From positions 1 through 10,909 of the forward strand of contig WRNK01000023.1 in NCBI GenBank assembly GCA_009776675.1: DNA of 10,909 bases. Reading direction: 5' to 3'. The position numbers and the translations under genes were made by a program. Shown here piece after piece: positions 2,166 through 10,909 of the stretch. This DNA is from Methanimicrococcus sp. (GTDB lineage: Archaea; Halobacteriota; Methanosarcinia; Methanosarcinales; Methanosarcinaceae). How positions within the stretch are numbered: the first letter of the stretch is position 1; every line of letters starts with the position of its first letter. Below the pieces are notes generated by a model, which saw only the letters and a program-made list of their open reading frames with translations, ran no database searches and was not told where the DNA came from.

Positions 2166-2903
2166 TTAGTTTTCAGTCGGCTCTTCTGCGACAGATTCTT
2201 CAACGGGTTCTGCAACAGGTTCTGCGACAGGTTCTGCGACAGGTTCTGCAACAGGTTCTGCGACAGGTTCTGCAACAGGTTCTGCTGCCGGCGCTGCTTC
2301 TTGCTGCGGGATACGTCTTTGAGCCGGTGTCTTAACAACTTCGGTCTTTCTGACTTCAACTCTTCTCAGCGGGTAGATGTTTTTGGTTTGCTTGTAAACC
2401 ATGGAAGAGAGTTTTCCGGTAACGATTTCTTGAATCAAGTCTTCGAAGTTGATTTTAACGGCACGTCTGACAACAATGCGTGTCATAAGTGCTCTGATGG
2501 CTTTAATTTGGCTGGTTCTTGCGCGTTTGACTGTAAAACAAGTCGGTTTGATGGTCACAATGTAGCCGTCAGCGGTTCTGACTGTTAAAATGGAATCAAT
2601 TTTAGATGTTTGTCTTTTTACAATGGAGCGGAGATAGTCGTTTGTCAAGTGGTGCCCGAGGAAAGCCGTTTCAGCAACATCGCCGTTGATTCGGACAATT
2701 CTAAATCTCATTTTGATGTTGTTTTTGGACATATCGTTTGTCATTTCACCGACAGTTGTTTCGATGATGCGGTCAATCATTAATTCAGGATCGGATGCAA
2801 CTGTTTGTCCGACCTGCATGCGATTTAAGAATTCAGGAGCGACAATGTTATACCATTTCTTTTCTTTCCAGCTGTCCACTTTCTTTTGCTGTTTTCTTGC
2901 CAT
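2166..2903 (-). CDS. rps3ae: 30S ribosomal protein S3Ae (eS1)
   Basis: Component of the small ribosomal subunit found in archaea and eukaryotes, located near the mRNA exit on the platform. The first 205 or so residues carry the family pattern: Trp-Lys-Glu-Lys-Lys-Trp-Tyr near residues 12-18, Phe-Leu-Gly-His-His-Leu-Thr-Asn-Asp-Tyr-Leu-Arg-Ser-Ile-Val, then Thr-Ile-Lys-Pro-Thr-Cys-Phe-Thr-Val-Lys-Arg-Ala, and Tyr-Pro-Leu-Arg-Arg-Val-Glu-Val-Arg-Lys-Thr. The last 40 residues are an acidic, proline-rich tail of tandem Glu-Pro-Val-Ala units, an extension on a family usually near 200 residues. The ATG is preceded by AAAGGA at a good distance. The gene is monocistronic here, with a very long leader and a hairpin terminator. 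In many euryarchaea it lies close to recJ and pcc1; here serS and a small gene separate them. Confidence 0.96.
   Translation of the reverse strand: MARKQQKKVDSWKEKKWYNIVAPEFLNRMQVGQTVASDPELMIDRIIETTVGEMTNDMSKNNIKMRFRIVRINGDVAETAFLGHHLTNDYLRSIVKRQTSKIDSILTVRTADGYIVTIKPTCFTVKRARTSQIKAIRALMTRIVVRRAVKINFEDLIQEIVTGKLSSMVYKQTKNIYPLRRVEVRKTEVVKTPAQRRIPQQEAAPAAEPVAEPVAEPVAEPVAEPVAEPVAEPVEESVAEEPTEN
2200..2283 (-). repeat. 12-bp coding repeat in the S3Ae tail
   Basis: Seven 12-bp units of the form GC(A/G)ACAGGTTCT on the plus strand (the first one diverged, TCAACGGGTTCT), encoding Glu-Pro-Val-Ala on the minus strand. Units are nearly identical at DNA level, so copy number is expected to vary by slippage between strains. 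Confidence 0.95.
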
Positions 2904-3695: not shown

Positions 3696-5198
3696 TTACA
3701 TGAATTTAACAATCTTTGGCATACTTCCAAATCTCTTTTTAACTTCCGGCGGCCACTTTTCAGGATCAAGCCCGTGCTGTGCCAAAAAAACAGCTGTCCA
3801 GCGTTCCAAACCGACGCCGGAACATCCACTCCAAAGTTTTTCACCGCTTTGGCTTTTTACGTTAAAGCCGTTTGGATACTTTTCGCCGTTAATGCTGACG
3901 TTTTGAAATTCCAGCCATTCGCCTTCAGGACCGCGATACGGGAGCGGTGCTTCATAGTCGGTGGTTCCGGTAACTTCGTCGGCTGCAATGCCGGCAATGC
4001 CTTCTTGTGCCATAAACCATGGTGTAACCCATGCTTTTCGCCACTTCAAATCGAGGAGATCATTGAAAATATGCATATATCTGTCGTGAAGATTTTGAGT
4101 GACTTCAACGACTTGCTCTTTGGTACCGATCCAAACCAACTCGATTCTGTGGAATTCGTCAACACGCTCAATACCGTGAATGCCGCCGCTTTCGTATCTG
4201 TGAGATGTGCCGGAGCGGTCAAATATCAGAATTGGCAAGCTGTCTGTTGCAATAGTTTCGCCTTGGAAAAAACCCCAAGACGGCGGACACTGTGCATAAC
4301 ACATACCGCCGATCGGATCGCCGATTTTTTCTTTAATCAATTCTGTCGGCACTTCATGAGTGACTTTGTAGTAATCCATCACATCTTCCCAGTAAGCGGG
4401 ATCGCGGGTTTTGGGCGGGCAGACATAGTAAATTTCGGGATAAACGCCTTTGGCATGACCGGAGCGTTTCCAAATGTCCCACATAATCATTTTGGGAAAA
4501 ATCATTTCATCATAGCCAAGCGGCTTTAAAATTTCATCAACGACAATTTGTTCAAAGACGCGGAATAATTTTGTTGTCACAGGCCCGTGAATCCACTGGC
4601 CTCTGCCGGCGCCGCGTTTTAGCCAGCCGGCGTTGAGCATCTCTTCCGTCGGGTCTGCCGTGAAATGAAACGGGCGGTCTTTGCTTTCCCATAACAAATT
4701 CCAGTGTTCCGCTTTGGCGCCGTATTCGCCTTGATCCAATTTGTCTTCAATCAATGTCAAAATGCGGTCAGGAACCTGATTTCTCATTTCAGCTTCGCCG
4801 ACTTCCAATGCCAAGACAAGGGTGTTGTTTTCAAAAGTGACAGATTGAACATACGGAATTTTTTTGTTCTTCAAATCATGGTCAGACGCAACCGTAATTG
4901 TGAAAGTCTCAACATCCATTCCGCGAATACCGATTTTATGCGTTTTTCCAAGAGCGTCGGCGAGCGGTTTTCTCAGACGCATAATCGCATCGTGAACACG
5001 GACATAACGACCGGATGCCAATTCAATTTGAATGGCGTTGCCGTCTAACTTCCAGGATTTGATTTGAGCGCCTTCGCCTTCGGGGGCGCCTTTGGCTAAA
5101 ATTGTTTTTTCAGCTTCTGCCATCACGCGTTCAATATCTCCTTTAGCAGCAGCCGGATCGGCACTTGTTTTTAAAGAAGCTTTTAAGTAAAATTCCAT
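3696..5198 (-). CDS. serS: Seryl-tRNA synthetase, methanogen-type (class II, zinc-dependent)
   Basis: Charges tRNA(Ser) with serine; by misacylation it also supplies the first step to selenocysteine where that pathway exists. This is the rare archaeal form, not the common SerRS: the N-terminal domain (residues 1 to about 165) is unlike the usual coiled-coil arm and the active site carries a zinc. The three zinc ligands known for the Methanosarcina barkeri enzyme (Cys306, Glu355, Cys461) fall here at Cys304, Glu353 and Cys459, a constant offset of two, as expected for a 500-residue protein against 502. Class II features include [11 protein letters not shown] (326-336) and Gly-Val-Gly-Leu-Glu-Arg-Trp at 461-467 (motif 3). 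The ATG start follows AGGATG with a 9-nt spacer and a TATA box. It is flanked by its own terminator. Some Methanosarcina carry a second, common-type SerRS, which cannot be judged here. Confidence 0.96.
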
Positions 5199-5314: not shown

Positions 5315-6943
5315 TTAATTTTCTGTTTCCCGACTCTTTTGCGATGCTTTTGTAACACGAACTGCTCCGTCCGCATTCATCAGCAAATCGTCAGCCGTTG
5401 CCAAAAGAGAGCCGATTTTATCGGAAGACAAGCAAATTTCAACATACCCATCTTCAACCTTTGTCTCCGTACCGTAAAGATTGTCCGGTGCTAAAGAGAC
5501 TGCCAACTTTTCTGCATGATGATTTTCTTTTTCGGCATCCGTTTCATCGATAAATCGAATGCAACCGCTGATATGAAGGGAAGATTTTTCTTTGGCAGAA
5601 GCGAGCTGTATGCCAACCAGCTCATTTAATTTTTCCAAAAACGCATCTTTTGTTCCGATCGGCAAAACACCGCCTGACGCAATTTTATGACCGCCGCCGA
5701 CACCGCCGACACTTGCAGACGCTTCTCGAACAGAAATGGAAAGATCAAGTCCTTTTTGAATCAAATCTCGTGTTGCGCGTGCGGAAATTCGAATGATGCT
5801 TTCGCGTTCGTTTAAACAGACAAACGGTTTTGACGGATCCACATACCGGACATAAGTGGTTGAAATGCTGCCGGAAGACTGGAGATCGCTGCCGTAAATG
5901 TAAGAGAGGTTGGATAGAGATGCAGCAAGTGGCAAAGCCTCCGAAAGATTTCGAATCAACGTTTCCTGATTGACCTTATAAAACTCATAAGCGCGGTTTA
6001 AAACCGTTTCATCGCCCAAACAAAGTGCAATGGCAGCATCAAAATCTTCGTCTTTGACACAGCTGTCTAAAATGCCCGCCAAATCAAAAACATTTTCGAC
6101 CAATTGGTTTTTCAAATAATAAACATCTCCGACGGCTGCTTCAATGGCGTCTGGGCAATGAATCTGATCTAACTTAGACAAAACCGCCTGACATAAACGA
6201 TTCATTTCACCCTCAGTGAGATCGCGTATGTTTTTGCCGGCATCTAATTTCAAATCTTCCAAAAAAGAACAAATGGCGTCCGGCTTTCCGGTGATGTCCA
6301 AATATGGCTCTGTTGTTTTCATGAAAACGTCAAGCAGGGAGCCATCTCCTACTTTTAGTCCGCGGCGCACAGCAACCGCGCCGGAACTTACAGCTTCTTC
6401 TAAAATAACGGCGTTTGCCGCAATGATTAATTGGCGGTCGCCAATCATTCCGGTAACGGCAAGCGATGATAAATCTACATTTTCGGGACGCATGGCGCGT
6501 GCCGTCAAATAAGAAACGCCGGCGCCGGAAATCATGTTGGAACCTTCAAGACCGACGAGCATCGGATTGACGACAGCTTTTGCAGGGGATTTTCCCACAG
6601 GAACGTGGTGATCTAAAATCACGATCGGATTTGGAAGAACAGACAAAATGTCTCCTTGACCGCTTCCGATATCACAGAAAACAAGCAAAAAATCTTCGGG
6701 ATAGGCAGAGGCGATTGACGCAACAATTCCTTCATCCAGTCTTGGGACGATCTTATGGTAATACGTTATTCCTTCACGTTTAAACGCCTGAATCATAATC
6801 GCAGCACTGGAAAGCCCGTCAGAATCGTTGTGCGTCACTAACCCGATATAAGAATGCTGTTTAATCAATCGAGCTGCCGACTCTGCATGCTTTTTCAAAT
6901 GGCGGATGCGTTCCGATTCGGGCATTGCATTGTAATTTACCAT
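5315..6943 (-). CDS. recJ: RecJ/GAN-type DHH nuclease with C-terminal Pcc1-like domain
   Basis: DHH/DHHA1 phosphoesterase of the archaeal RecJ group (GINS-associated nuclease), expected to degrade single-stranded nucleic acid from an end and to work with the replisome. With the ATG at 6943 (542 aa), visible motifs are His-Asn-Asp-Ser-Asp-Gly (38-43), Phe-Cys-Asp-Ile-Gly (89-93), Asp-His-His (111-113), Gly-Asp-Arg (168-170), and the DHHA1 loop Gly-Gly-Gly-His-Lys-Ile-Ala-Ser-Gly-Gly (416-425). Residues 455 to about 535 do not belong to RecJ. They have the pattern of Pcc1, the dimerising subunit of the KEOPS complex for tRNA t6A synthesis: Val-Ser-Leu-Ala-Pro-Asp-Asn-Leu, a Val-Glu-Ile-Cys-Leu strand, and Lys-Ile-Gly-Ser-Leu-Leu-Ala-Thr-Ala-Asp-Asp-Leu-Leu-Met-Asn. 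The open frame extends to a TTG at 6967, but the predicted transcript start (near 6960) lies after that codon, favouring ATG 6943. Confidence 0.9.
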   Translation of the reverse strand: MVNYNAMPESERIRHLKKHAESAARLIKQHSYIGLVTHNDSDGLSSAAIMIQAFKREGITYYHKIVPRLDEGIVASIASAYPEDFLLVFCDIGSGQGDILSVLPNPIVILDHHVPVGKSPAKAVVNPMLVGLEGSNMISGAGVSYLTARAMRPENVDLSSLAVTGMIGDRQLIIAANAVILEEAVSSGAVAVRRGLKVGDGSLLDVFMKTTEPYLDITGKPDAICSFLEDLKLDAGKNIRDLTEGEMNRLCQAVLSKLDQIHCPDAIEAAVGDVYYLKNQLVENVFDLAGILDSCVKDEDFDAAIALCLGDETVLNRAYEFYKVNQETLIRNLSEALPLAASLSNLSYIYGSDLQSSGSISTTYVRYVDPSKPFVCLNERESIIRISARATRDLIQKGLDLSISVREASASVGGVGGGHKIASGGVLPIGTKDAFLEKLNELVGIQLASAKEKSSLHISGCIRFIDETDAEKENHHAEKLAVSLAPDNLYGTETKVEDGYVEICLSSDKIGSLLATADDLLMNADGAVRVTKASQKSRETEN

Positions 6944-6978
6944 AATGTCACTTTTATTGATAATCAAAGTCTTCTTAA

Positions 6979-6991: not shown

Positions 6992-7981
6992 TTAAACAAA
7001 AAGAAAGAGACCGGCAACATAGATAATATAAATCAATGCGATGAGTGCACCCTGACTTCGAGTAATGCGTTTTTTGTACCCAAAAAAGACAAGTAAAACG
7101 AAGAGCAAAAGCATGAAAATATAATCATATCTGAGCAGTTGGCTGTTGACATTCAGATCAACGAACATTGAAGAAACGCCTAAAATCATTGTGATGTCTA
7201 AAATGTTGGAACCGACGATGTTTCCGACCGAAAGTTCTTGGAAGCCTTTTCTAAAGGAAGTAAACGCTGTGATAATTTCAGGAAGGGCTGTTCCAATTGA
7301 AATGACAGTCAGACTAATAATAATTTCAGGAATGCCGATCTTTACCGCAATCAAAAGACCGTTGTCCACGATCAAGCGGCTTCCGATGACAACGAGGGCG
7401 CCGCCGATGAGAAAGACAATGGCGTCGAGGTATTTTCCATTGATTTTAACATGTGACCAAATGCCTTTTTGAACGATTCCGGAATCGTCCGATTCTTTTT
7501 CACCCGATTCTTTTTTTGGATTGCGTTTTTGTTCCCAATAAATATAAAAAATATATGCAGCAAATAAAATCAAAAAAATGGTTCCGTGAAGACGCGTAAT
7601 CACGCCGTTTAAACTTACCAATACCAAAACACCGCCGGCAAGAAGCATCATTAAAGCTTTCACGCTGAATTTTTTATCATCAATTGCCACGGTTTTTAAC
7701 ATCACAATGAATCCGACGGCAATTCCGATGTTGCAAATCGTTGAACCGACTGCGTTTCCGATTGCCATGTCGGAATGTCCTTGAATCGCCGCCAAAAAGC
7801 TGACCATAAATTCAGGAGCCGTTGTCGCAAAACTCACAATTGTCGCACCAATCACAGCTTTTGGAATGCCGCTTCTTTTGGAAATATTGACGGCAGAATC
7901 AACAAACCAATCTGCACCAACCGCAATGAAACAAAATCCGATAAAAAACAAAAAATAAACCAAAAGGTCTGAAAAAATCAT
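6992..7981 (-). CDS. Cation/Ca2+ exchanger (CaCA family, YrbG/NCKX-like)
   Basis: Integral membrane antiporter, probably exchanging Ca2+ for Na+. The 329-residue product has about ten hydrophobic segments in two inverted halves joined by a charged cytoplasmic loop (about residues 150-180). Both alpha repeats are present: alpha-1 at 45-86 with Phe-Ala-Thr-Thr-Ala-Pro-Glu (Glu57) and Gly-Asn-Ala-Val-Gly-Ser, alpha-2 at 224-265 with Gly-Thr-Ala-Leu-Pro-Glu (Glu235) and Gly-Asn-Ile-Val-Gly-Ser-Asn. Asp262 in Asn-Ile-Leu-Asp-Ile is at the position that in animal NCKX exchangers goes with K+ dependence, so K+ co-transport is possible (inference). The frame extends to a TTG at 8023, but the TATA box at 8041-8049 predicts a start near 8019, and family length fits the ATG at 7981. 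It is divergent from corA. Confidence 0.9.
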   Translation of the reverse strand: MIFSDLLVYFLFFIGFCFIAVGADWFVDSAVNISKRSGIPKAVIGATIVSFATTAPEFMVSFLAAIQGHSDMAIGNAVGSTICNIGIAVGFIVMLKTVAIDDKKFSVKALMMLLAGGVLVLVSLNGVITRLHGTIFLILFAAYIFYIYWEQKRNPKKESGEKESDDSGIVQKGIWSHVKINGKYLDAIVFLIGGALVVIGSRLIVDNGLLIAVKIGIPEIIISLTVISIGTALPEIITAFTSFRKGFQELSVGNIVGSNILDITMILGVSSMFVDLNVNSQLLRYDYIFMLLLFVLLVFFGYKKRITRSQGALIALIYIIYVAGLFLFV

Positions 7982-8142: not shown

Positions 8143-9735
8143 ATGGATTTAGAAAAAAAAAGCGATGTCAAGGACACCGAAGTTATCATCGGTGATGCCT
8201 TAGTAAAAAAATCCGGCAAAGCCAAGCTGCCGCCAAAAAATTTAACTTATCCAAATGATGAAGAAAGCGAAGAAGAAAGCAACATCGAAGAAGAAAGCAA
8301 CATCGAAGAAGAAAGCGAAGAAGAAAGCAACATCGAAGAAGAAGGCGAAGAAGAAAGTAACATCGAAGAAGAAAACAACATCGAAGAAGAAAATAACATC
8401 GAAGAAGAAAACAACATCGAAGAAGAAAGTGAAGGCGAAGAAGAAAACAACATTGAAGAAGAGAGTGAAGGTGAAAAAGAAAACGGCAGCGAAGAAGAAA
8501 GCGAAGGCGAAAAAGAAAACGGCAACGAAGAAGAAAGTAACGGTGAAGAAGAAAACGGTGGCAAAGAAGAAAAACCAATTGAAAATGCATGTGATGCCGA
8601 AGCTGTCGTCAGTGATGTCTTAGTAAAAGAATCCGACAAAGCCGGACTTCCGCCAGGAACTTTAATTTATTTGGATGAAGAAGAAGAGGAGGAGGAAAAG
8701 GAAGAAGAAAGCGGCGATGAAGAAAAATGCGACATTGAAGAAGAAAAACCAATTGAAAAATGCACAATTCGAATCATCGAATATAATGAACAAGGACACA
8801 GTGATCGGCGAGTTCAGACACCTGCAGACATTCAGATTGAAAAAGCCCCCGATAAAATTGTATGGATCCATACAACGGGACTTCAGGATGTTGAAAAAGT
8901 ACGCTTGTTGGGTGAAAAATATAACATCCGCCGTTTAGCACTTGAAGACATTGTCAACCAACTCCAAAGACCCAAAGTCGAAGATTTTGGAAATTACATT
9001 TTTACCGTCTTAAAAGAGATTCATTTCGATGAAGAATATAACGAAACAACTTACGAACAAATCAGTATTATTACCATGGGCAAAATGGTATTGACATTTA
9101 TTGATAAAGAAACGAACATTTTTGATCCGGTCATTAAACGAATTCAAAAAGATCGAAAAATGCGAAAATTCGGTGCCGATTACTTAACATACGCATTAAT
9201 TGACATTGTTGTTGACCATTACTTCTTCGTTTTGGAATCGTTTGACGAATGGTTTGATGACGTTGAAAAAGCAATTGTCGAATCATCTGAAAAGGACAGT
9301 GCAAAAGATATCAATAAAATGAGAACCGAATTGTCAATTTTTAATAAAGCTGTTCGTCCGTTATCAACTGTTGTTGAAAAATTAGAAAAAATAAATTCTA
9401 AATTAATAAAGAAATCAACGCGTGTTTATTTCCGTGACGTTTACGACCATTTGGCACGCATTACAGAAACAATTGACACGAATCGTGAAATTGTCAGCGG
9501 TATTTTTGACTTATATAATGCAGGCATTTCAAAACGTCTGAATGAAACCATACGGATATTAACCGTGATCTCTACAATCTTCATCCCGCTCACGTTTATT
9601 GCCGGAGTTTACGGCATGAATTTTGATAATATGCCGGAATTGTATTGGGAATACGGATACTATATTTGCCTTGCGGGAATGCTTGCCGTCCTTGTAATAA
9701 TGCTGGCGTTTTTCAAAAAGAAAAAATGGTTCTAA
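8143..9735 (+). CDS. corA: CorA-type magnesium/divalent cation transporter with long acidic N-terminal extension
   Basis: Residues from about 207 to 530 form a normal CorA: a cytoplasmic alpha/beta funnel domain, long helices, then two membrane helices near the C-terminus (about 469-489 and 505-524). The signature Gly-Met-Asn lies at 491-493 after the first of these, and a basic Lys-rich end (525-528) follows the second. CorA pentamers conduct Mg2+ (also Co2+, Ni2+) into the cell, and Mg2+ bound between cytoplasmic domains closes the channel. The first 206 residues are not part of the family. They consist of two copies of a 26-residue module (11-36 and 151-176), each followed by a Glu-rich tract that ends in Glu-Lys-Pro-Ile-Glu. 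The tract from 40 to about 146 repeats Glu-Glu-Glu-Ser-Asn-Ile-like units. The extension lies on the cytoplasmic side and should bind cations weakly. The ATG is fixed by AGGAGG. A terminator follows. Confidence 0.93.
   Translation: MDLEKKSDVKDTEVIIGDALVKKSGKAKLPPKNLTYPNDEESEEESNIEEESNIEEESEEESNIEEEGEEESNIEEENNIEEENNIEEENNIEEESEGEEENNIEEESEGEKENGSEEESEGEKENGNEEESNGEEENGGKEEKPIENACDAEAVVSDVLVKESDKAGLPPGTLIYLDEEEEEEEKEEESGDEEKCDIEEEKPIEKCTIRIIEYNEQGHSDRRVQTPADIQIEKAPDKIVWIHTTGLQDVEKVRLLGEKYNIRRLALEDIVNQLQRPKVEDFGNYIFTVLKEIHFDEEYNETTYEQISIITMGKMVLTFIDKETNIFDPVIKRIQKDRKMRKFGADYLTYALIDIVVDHYFFVLESFDEWFDDVEKAIVESSEKDSAKDINKMRTELSIFNKAVRPLSTVVEKLEKINSKLIKKSTRVYFRDVYDHLARITETIDTNREIVSGIFDLYNAGISKRLNETIRILTVISTIFIPLTFIAGVYGMNFDNMPELYWEYGYYICLAGMLAVLVIMLAFFKKKKWF
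8173..8670 (+). repeat. Duplicated 78-bp module within corA (8173-8250 and 8593-8670)
   Basis: Both copies encode Asp-X-Glu-X-X-X-X-Asp-X-Leu-Val-Lys-X-Ser-X-Lys-Ala-X-Leu-Pro-Pro-X-X-Leu-X-Tyr in the same frame, exactly 140 codons apart. By hand count 62 of 78 bases match, so this is a DNA duplication and not chance. Confidence 0.9.
8262..8575 (+). repeat. Purine-rich GAA/GAG repeat tract in corA
   Basis: Degenerate tandem units built on GAAGAAGAAAGCAACATC (18 bp, 6 residues), drifting to variants with GGTGAA or GGCGAAAAAGAAAAC. The plus strand is overwhelmingly A and G over more than 300 bp. Confidence 0.9.
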
Positions 9736-9831: not shown

Positions 9832-10067
9832 CTTCAAAATGATTATCCGTATACTGCAAAGTATAAAAATAACAAATATTTAAATGGCATAACAATATGG
9901 ATTAGTAATTAATAAAAAATGTAATAAAAAACAATAATAAAAAACAAAAACTGAATCATGCAAAACTCCAAAAAATCACGCACAGCATGATCAAATCAAA
10001 TAATTTCAAAAAAGGGCATAATAAAAAAGGAAATAAACAAAATGAAAACAAAGAAGGAATAAATCAA
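9832..10067. other. AT-rich intergenic region before the surface protein gene
   Basis: I see no convincing gene in this stretch. It holds possible TATA sequences (GTATAAAAATAAC near 9860-9872; ATATTTAAAT near 9876-9885), an inverted repeat ATCATGC/GCATGAT (9955-9961, 9985-9991) that could be a regulator site or hairpin, and a six-codon ATG...TAA minicistron at 10042-10062 with its own AAGG site upstream. AAGGA at 10054-10058 serves the next gene. Confidence 0.5.
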
Positions 10068-10909
10068 ATGAATCACCCGATCCGACGGCAGCACCGTATT
10101 CAACCATCATTACGAGACGATTCGCTTATTAAAAAAAATAATTTAAAACACACGAAGTCAATTTTGCTGACTGCCTGCCTGGCAGTTTTTCTGTTTCTGA
10201 TGCTCGCCACACCGGCGTTTGCGGCAGACGTCAGCACCTACGCCGAATTACAAACCGCAGCAGCGGCCGTAACGAGCGACAACGTTATCAGACTTGCAGC
10301 CGATATCAGCGGGGACACCCAACTCACGATCGGACGCAGCCTTAAACTTGACCTTAATGGTTATAATTTAACAATCGATTTGCCTGATGCGACAGGTCGA
10401 ACGTCTAACGGCATCCACCTTAATTCCGATGTTACATTGGTTATTGATGATAGTGTAACCGGTGGCGGCAACGCACTTGAAGTCAAGAATGGAGCAACTA
10501 CCAGGCCTCAATTTGCTTGTGGCGCAGCTATCCAGACCACGAATGGTACATTAGTTATACTGAGCGGTGCGGTTAATGCCTACGGCGGCTACTGTGGTGC
10601 GGGCATTGGCGGAGGTTTCAATGACGGCGTTGACAGCTACGATGGATCAGGCGGCAACATCATTATCCTCGGCGGCGATGTCAGAGCAGTCGGCGGTAAT
10701 TACAGCGCAGGAATCGGCGGCGGCGACGGCGGCGTTGGCGGCAATATCATAATCAATGGCGGCAACGTCACGGCAATCGGTGGCGGCACAGGCCATGAAA
10801 CTGCTGGCGGCGGTGCGGGTATCGGCGGCGGCGATGGTGCCAGCAGTTACACCGACGGTTCGGGCGGCAACATCACAATCAACGGCGGCACGGTCAATGC
10901 TACCGGCGG
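10068..10909 (+). CDS. Secreted glycine-rich beta-helix-like surface protein (3' truncated by window edge)
   Basis: 280 codons are visible before the window ends. The N-terminus has a long polar, basic region (31 residues), then a hydrophobic core (32-48) and a signal-peptidase site Ala-Phe-Ala-Ala-Asp near 50-54, so the protein is exported. Residues 54 to about 110 (Thr-Tyr-Ala-Glu-Leu-Gln..., Ile-Arg-Leu-Ala-Ala-Asp-Ile..., Leu-Asp-Leu-Asn-Gly-Tyr) match the start of pectate-lyase-like or adhesive beta-helix surface proteins common in gut microbes. From residue 179 it enters Gly-Ile-Gly-Gly-Gly repeats, each followed by a Gly-Gly-Asn-Ile-X-Ile-X-Gly-Gly strand and Val-X-Ala-X-Gly-Gly. A likely role is adhesion or glycan binding at the cell surface. 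The start is set by AAGGA 9 nt upstream. G+C is visibly higher than in all neighbours, with many GGC glycine codons, which suggests transfer or special codon selection. Confidence 0.85.
   Translation, partial: MNHPIRRQHRIQPSLRDDSLIKKNNLKHTKSILLTACLAVFLFLMLATPAFAADVSTYAELQTAAAAVTSDNVIRLAADISGDTQLTIGRSLKLDLNGYNLTIDLPDATGRTSNGIHLNSDVTLVIDDSVTGGGNALEVKNGATTRPQFACGAAIQTTNGTLVILSGAVNAYGGYCGAGIGGGFNDGVDSYDGSGGNIIILGGDVRAVGGNYSAGIGGGDGGVGGNIIINGGNVTAIGGGTGHETAGGGAGIGGGDGASSYTDGSGGNITINGGTVNATG
10602..10909 (+). repeat. Gly-Ile-Gly-Gly-Gly coding repeats, 36-residue period
   Basis: Gly-Ile-Gly-Gly-Gly recurs at residues 179, 215 and 251, exactly 36 residues (108 bp) apart. The internal loops differ in length and position but keep the total constant. 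The array continues beyond the window. Confidence 0.85.

Follow-up and report, generated by a model that had tools for sequence, protein, structure and literature searches.

An archaeal RecJ-type protein of Methanimicrococcus carries a C-terminal domain assigned to the KEOPS subunit Pcc2

Introduction

There is, to our knowledge, no established reason why recJ and genes of the Pcc1 family lie side by side in archaea. Methanimicrococcus is a genus of gut methanogens, and the window analysed here (a stretch of its DNA, 10,909 nucleotides in whole) holds the two in one open reading frame (ORF), which raises the question of what the RecJ-type protein carries at its C-terminus and what the joined protein would do. 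A fusion that has persisted naturally throughout a genus counts as classic evidence for products that work together. The adjacency itself is described for many archaea in the available text of PMC3307487. We found no report of a RecJ-Pcc2 fusion in the literature searched, which covers few subscription papers, and two papers on genomes from these genera, searched by word, contained no RecJ, KEOPS or Pcc1.

Results

RecJ and a Pcc1-family domain share one open reading frame

The genes and domains discussed below are as follows.

5315..6943, minus strand: recJ-pcc2 fusion gene, 542 aa from the ATG at 6943, stop at 5315
5600..6943, minus strand: archaeal RecJ part with DHH and DHHA1 (residues 1-448)
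5576..5599, minus strand: variable linker (residues about 449-456, by identity and pLDDT)
5345..5575, minus strand: domain assigned to Pcc2 (residues about 457-533), in the order beta, split alpha-1, beta, beta, alpha-2
5387..5392, minus strand: Asp518-Asp519, the Pcc2 signature pair (Asn-Ser/Thr in Pcc1)
3696..5198, minus strand: type-2 (methanogen) seryl-tRNA synthetase, the next gene downstream (NF002120, 715 bits, cut-off 611)
2166..2903, minus strand: ribosomal protein S3Ae (over the cut-offs of PF01015 and NF003142), part of the ancestral neighbourhood of recJ and pcc

The fusion ORF can also be read from an in-frame upstream TTG at 6967 (5315-6967, minus strand, 550 aa); the ATG at 6943, which gives 542 aa, is the likely start because all five relatives compared start with MVNY. 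In the window, serS sits between the fusion gene and rps3ae. The C-terminus of S3Ae extends past the S3Ae domain through a 12-base repeat of about 8.5 copies that encodes Glu-Pro-Val-Ala (2184-2285), and a tandem array with a 32/64-base unit (1967-2112) lies between a purP-like gene and rps3ae. Elsewhere in the window, a CorA-type Mg transporter (8143-9735) has a long acidic N-terminal extension encoded by repeats (repeat array 8260-8572), and 9987-10907 holds the start of a protein of beta-helix repeats, which may be a secreted adhesin and runs off the window.

The RecJ part keeps its catalytic motifs. Both DHH and DHHA1 exceed their Pfam cut-offs, and the residues H38-D40-D42, D91, D111-H112-H113, D169 and GGGH (416-419), which correspond to the catalytic residues of the DHH family, are intact and match invariant columns among 50 RecJs. 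All 31 fused proteins described below, that of the window included, show the five catalytic motif patterns. The best RecJ match is the archaeal RecJ model NF053576 (340.7 bits, just below its equivalog cut-off of 360); the GAN model NF053575 scored 153 bits, below its cut-off of 850.

A sequence-only reading of this DNA had proposed a Pcc1 domain at the end of the RecJ-type protein, and the motif that it quoted (APDNL ... LLATADDLLMN) is found in the tail as quoted. Profile searches bore the proposal out with NCBIfam and not with Pfam: NF011470 (KEOPS subunit Pcc1) scored 42.7 bits (cut-off 27) over residues 468-539 of the 550-aa reading and 45.2 bits (E 1.1e-11) on the isolated tail, whereas no Pfam family, PF09341 (Pcc1) included, matched the fused tail. 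In the relatives, PF09341 likewise detected the stand-alone Pcc1 and missed the fused copy. The predicted structure of the isolated tail (pLDDT 83) has a beta-alpha-beta-beta-alpha fold, and Pcc1 or Pcc2 chains fill the first ten places of a Foldseek search with this model, at E values of only 0.009-0.03. With NF011470 above its cut-off and the same long frame in 30 homologues, the proposal that both units reside in one protein held: the 542-aa protein is an archaeal RecJ, then a brief linker of variable sequence, then a Pcc1-family domain of 80 residues.

The tail is assigned to Pcc2, the paralogue of Pcc1

KEOPS modifies tRNA, and Pcc2, a Pcc1 paralogue, is its small, regulatory fifth subunit in archaea. 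Judged by its sequence, the fused tail is Pcc2, because it has the Asp-Asp signature, stems from a recJ-adjacent gene (see below), falls with Pcc2 in a tree and matches, among KEOPS chains in the PDB, only Pcc2. The Asp-Asp pair occurs in all 31 fused tails (29 DDLLMN, 2 DDLLMS), and D518-D519 is invariant across 28 aligned fused proteins, in which the PDN box is also conserved. The nearest unfused relatives have the same pair in their four stand-alone proteins, as do 71/71 recJ-adjacent ORFs. An Asn-Thr pair is present in 35/35 Pcc1 ORFs (from 30 family loci and 5 Methanimicrococcus loci), which were found by a profile built from rows chosen by the N-T motif. In the tree, the branch between Pcc1 and Pcc2 has 100/98 support and places the fused tails with Pcc2; the alignment has few columns, the reference branches are long and the bootstrap is not settled, and the Pcc1 rows (19 'other' and 5 stand-alone) were chosen by the N-T motif and are hence circular for the signature. 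When a profile built from the tail together with its relatives was compared with the PDB, Pcc2 was found (7a67_B, E 3e-4; 7a66_A, E 4e-4) and no Pcc1 chain matched. The tail model also shows a split alpha-1 helix, a Pcc2 feature according to the accessible part of PMC9889334; structure comparison on its own does not tell Pcc1 from Pcc2. Hence the family named by the sequence-only reading stands, and Pcc1 proper gives way to Pcc2 on the Asp-Asp pair, the tree and the PDB profile matches.

One part of the domain departs from other Pcc2s: the second half of alpha-2 reads ADGAVRVKKAS in the window's tail, as against KIAEEVL-like sequences elsewhere. A similar end (window 5345-5386) is common to Methanimicrococcus, Methanolapillus and Methanosarcinaceae archaeon Ag5 (P0095-P0098), and since Methanolapillus and Ag5 are unfused, it is older than the fusion.

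The other KEOPS subunits are encoded elsewhere in the genomes of the genus. A stand-alone canonical Pcc1 (Asn-Thr; open frame of 84-114 aa) is present in five of six Methanimicrococcus genomes, and the G002 assembly shows the fused Pcc copy only. Kae1 and Bud32 share one ORF in 6/6 relatives (in G006, Kae1 is partial and scores below its cut-off), and Cgi121 was detected in all six. The sequence-only reading had considered that the tail might be the only Pcc1 of the cell, dimerising both KEOPS and the nuclease. That NCBIfam calls the matched family 'Pcc1' and that G002 shows the fused copy alone would agree with this suggestion; against it are the Pcc2 signature, the tree, the PDB profile matches and the canonical stand-alone Pcc1, which rules out the tail as sole Pcc1-family protein for five of the six relatives. 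On the basis of these relatives, we consider an only-Pcc1 role very improbable. The argument that Pcc1 dimerises KEOPS and would thus dimerise the nuclease fails as well, since the tail is assigned to Pcc2, which, as the available text of PMC9889334 describes, prevents the KEOPS dimer.

The fusion is found in all six Methanimicrococcus genomes examined

A protein search that scored only the 7,995 candidates with most words in common with the query returned 94 proteins, the window's own included, of which rows 1-31 are 541-565 aa long. The 30 closest homologues besides the window's protein have the same tail in the same single frame and all differ in sequence, which rules out an assembly error or frameshift artefact. 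A tail profile matched all 31 of these longest-tailed rows and none of the remaining 63 proteins; thus, within the proteins and genomes searched, the tail is ruled out as a part of ordinary RecJs. A second search, for tail-bearing proteins of about 300-950 aa (261 candidates scored), gave 28 matches, all among the 31. Three of the 31 bear Methanimicrococcus names, one of these on a 2.19 Mb contig. These three (P0009, P0010 and P0011) are annotated as hypothetical, DHHA1 domain-containing or DHH family phosphoesterase, and KEOPS is absent from the source names shown for them.

At the genome level, 106 of 111 family genomes have a RecJ at E <= 1e-60. The open frames of G001-G005 are 548-593 aa long, the fusion gene of G006 is split by contig ends, with half on each of two contigs, and the remaining 100 RecJs are 321-481 aa; all six Methanimicrococcus genomes examined (G001-G006) have the recJ-pcc2 fusion. 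Across 392 genomes of the phylum, only G001, among the matches listed, continues stop-free to the end of the profile. Four others inspected for frame length (G128, G146, G194 and G185) have no Pcc tail on RecJ; a 572-aa frame with stops inside, in G096, lies outside these four. Phyla other than that of G001 were covered through the protein searches of word-sharing candidates only.

The fusion points to an ancestral pair of neighbouring genes

The three rows that follow the fused proteins belong to Methanolapillus millepedarum, M. ohkumae and Ag5, with RecJs of 454-463 aa at 59-61% identity. Searching with the tail retrieved four stand-alone proteins (84-88 aa, 61-69% identical) from Methanolapillus and Ag5, and in Ag5 recJ and pcc2 are neighbours by locus number (MsAg5_01550 and 01560). 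A Pcc2-like ORF lies just downstream of recJ in 71 of 74 unfused loci (L007-L080), in line with the earlier suggestion that two neighbouring genes had fused. In 25 of the 71 pairs, the ATG chosen for pcc2 overlaps recJ by 4 bases (start codons chosen by rule, overlap counted from rows). In some loci, L012 and L019 (about 7300-7330) among them, recJ and pcc2 are in phase, one stop and 9 bases apart, so that stop loss alone would yield a fusion. The order RecJ, SerRS, S3Ae is seen in 18 of 80 loci, many of which end before the position of S3Ae, and the part of PMC3307487 available assigns the neighbourhood of RecJ, S15, S3 and Pcc1 to the last archaeal ancestor. The fusion would have arisen on the branch to Methanimicrococcus from adjacent, often overlapping recJ and pcc2 genes, most simply through loss of the intervening stop codon.

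The linker is variable and the tail is under purifying selection

Across 28 fused proteins, mean majority identity is 0.43 in the linker, 0.87 in RecJ and 0.78 in the Pcc2 domain. The full-length model has a mean pLDDT of 89; RecJ is modelled best, residues 452-454 fall below 50, and the tail, its last two residues apart, has ten-residue blocks at pLDDT 61-86. This model fits two domains joined by a short flexible tether. A linker that is variable and predicted to be flexible also suits a reading in which the fused ORF gives two products, through linker proteolysis or internal initiation, and RecJ and Pcc2 act apart. Among five relatives, a start-type codon stands at or near the Pcc2 motif in L003 (ATG at -5 and 0) and L004 (GTG at 0), where separate initiation of Pcc2 may occur judging by these codons, and GGAG lies near the motif in L001. 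However, L001, L002 and L005 have no start-type codon at the motif position, and no internal start falls at a common position across the five. From 21 codons ahead of the first Pcc2-motif codon to 13 codons past it, the window's junction has no in-frame ATG, GTG or TTG, and no Shine-Dalgarno-like word lies nearby; a single polypeptide is therefore expected from the window's gene, and we consider two separate products unlikely. The fused frame of L003 continues past the Pcc2 domain into an acidic, serine-rich extension (7636-7746).

Selection is seen on both parts of the fused gene. On the tail it is purifying, with dN/dS at 0.09-0.24 in 13 of 15 pairs (the other two are saturated) and synonymous sites near saturation in all tail pairs (pS 0.49-0.80). 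Relative to RecJ, the fused tail is somewhat less constrained than free Pcc2: the median tail/RecJ pN ratio is 1.54 for the fused proteins (15 pairs), as against 1.12 for the unfused ones (14 of the 55 pairs formed by 11 loci, selected for RecJ pN of 0.05-0.2 and pS above 0.3). Such slight relaxation would agree with near-neutral read-through, whereby RecJ works, the Pcc2 tail is a slowly decaying passenger and KEOPS has four subunits. In Methanococcus maripaludis, Pcc2 is non-essential, as stated in the available text of PMC9889334, so a weakly functional tail could be tolerable. The low dN/dS values and the conserved DD pair and PDN box argue against a passenger, as does the finding that none of the 94 proteins is a tailless RecJ of Methanimicrococcus-like identity, and we regard read-through of this kind as rather unlikely.

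Discussion

We consider it reasonably probable that Methanimicrococcus makes one RecJ-Pcc2 polypeptide, born from the joining of recJ and pcc2, that still pairs with Pcc1 and tethers one RecJ per KEOPS. Pcc2 replaces a second Pcc1, pairs with Pcc1 and blocks the KEOPS dimer, as set out in the accessible part of PMC9889334. In the fusion, the Pcc2 domain would pair with the separately encoded Pcc1 and cap KEOPS as a 1:1:1:1:1 complex. At the C-terminus of RecJ, Pcc2 is predicted to block the KEOPS superdimer; if Pcc2 blocks dimerisation, each monomeric KEOPS would tether one RecJ, and no dimerised nuclease would result. Pairing may survive a fusion at the N-terminus of Pcc2, since an engineered Pcc1-Pcc1 fusion can support yeast growth (PMC9889334, available text) and chain 8up5_P contains two Pcc1 units in tandem. 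We infer an uncleaved protein that binds both Pcc1 and Kae1 and links t6A synthesis with DNA replication or repair.

A further step, which we put forward tentatively and hold to be doubtful, is that every five-subunit KEOPS of Methanimicrococcus has RecJ as an integral arm, with t6A synthesis obligatorily coupled to DNA replication or repair and an older RecJ-Pcc2 interaction made covalent. If this is true, the conserved recJ-pcc2 pair reflects that older interaction, and the part in DNA repair that has been proposed for KEOPS would run through Pcc2 as its bridge; the available text of PMC10989989 makes a case for KEOPS acting beyond t6A, presumably in recombination. As a link between tRNA modification and DNA repair, the fusion is rare and open to direct test, a strain of Methanimicrococcus blatticola (DSM 13328) being on deposit; it also prompts the question of whether RecJ and Pcc2, where they are free as in Methanosarcina, bind one another.

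The tail resembles archaeal Pcc2 (T. kodakarensis TK1253; P. abyssi 7A66/7A67) in its acid-acid alpha-2 pair, in the split alpha-1 of its model and in tree placement, and its unfused relatives adjoin recJ; archaeal Pcc2 is a free protein of about 80 aa, whereas here it forms the C-terminal domain of RecJ, with an altered end of alpha-2. The locus shares RecJ, a Pcc1-family unit, S3Ae and an intact DHH nuclease with the RecJ/GAN neighbourhood (S15, RecJ, Pcc1, S3) as described in the part of PMC3307487 available; there the genes are separate, whereas here recJ and pcc2 form one ORF and serS precedes rps3ae. Gon7-like domains on PAN or MutS in some haloarchaea (PMC10989989, available text) also place a KEOPS domain of the fifth-subunit type in a larger protein, which in one case acts in DNA repair; partner and lineage differ from those here, and those cases are described there as rare. 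Unlike them, RecJ-Pcc2 joins usual gene neighbours and is present in all six Methanimicrococcus genomes examined. The Kae1-Bud32 fusion, also found in Methanimicrococcus, likewise joins KEOPS subunits by gene fusion; it links two KEOPS subunits to each other, whereas RecJ-Pcc2 joins a KEOPS subunit to a nuclease.
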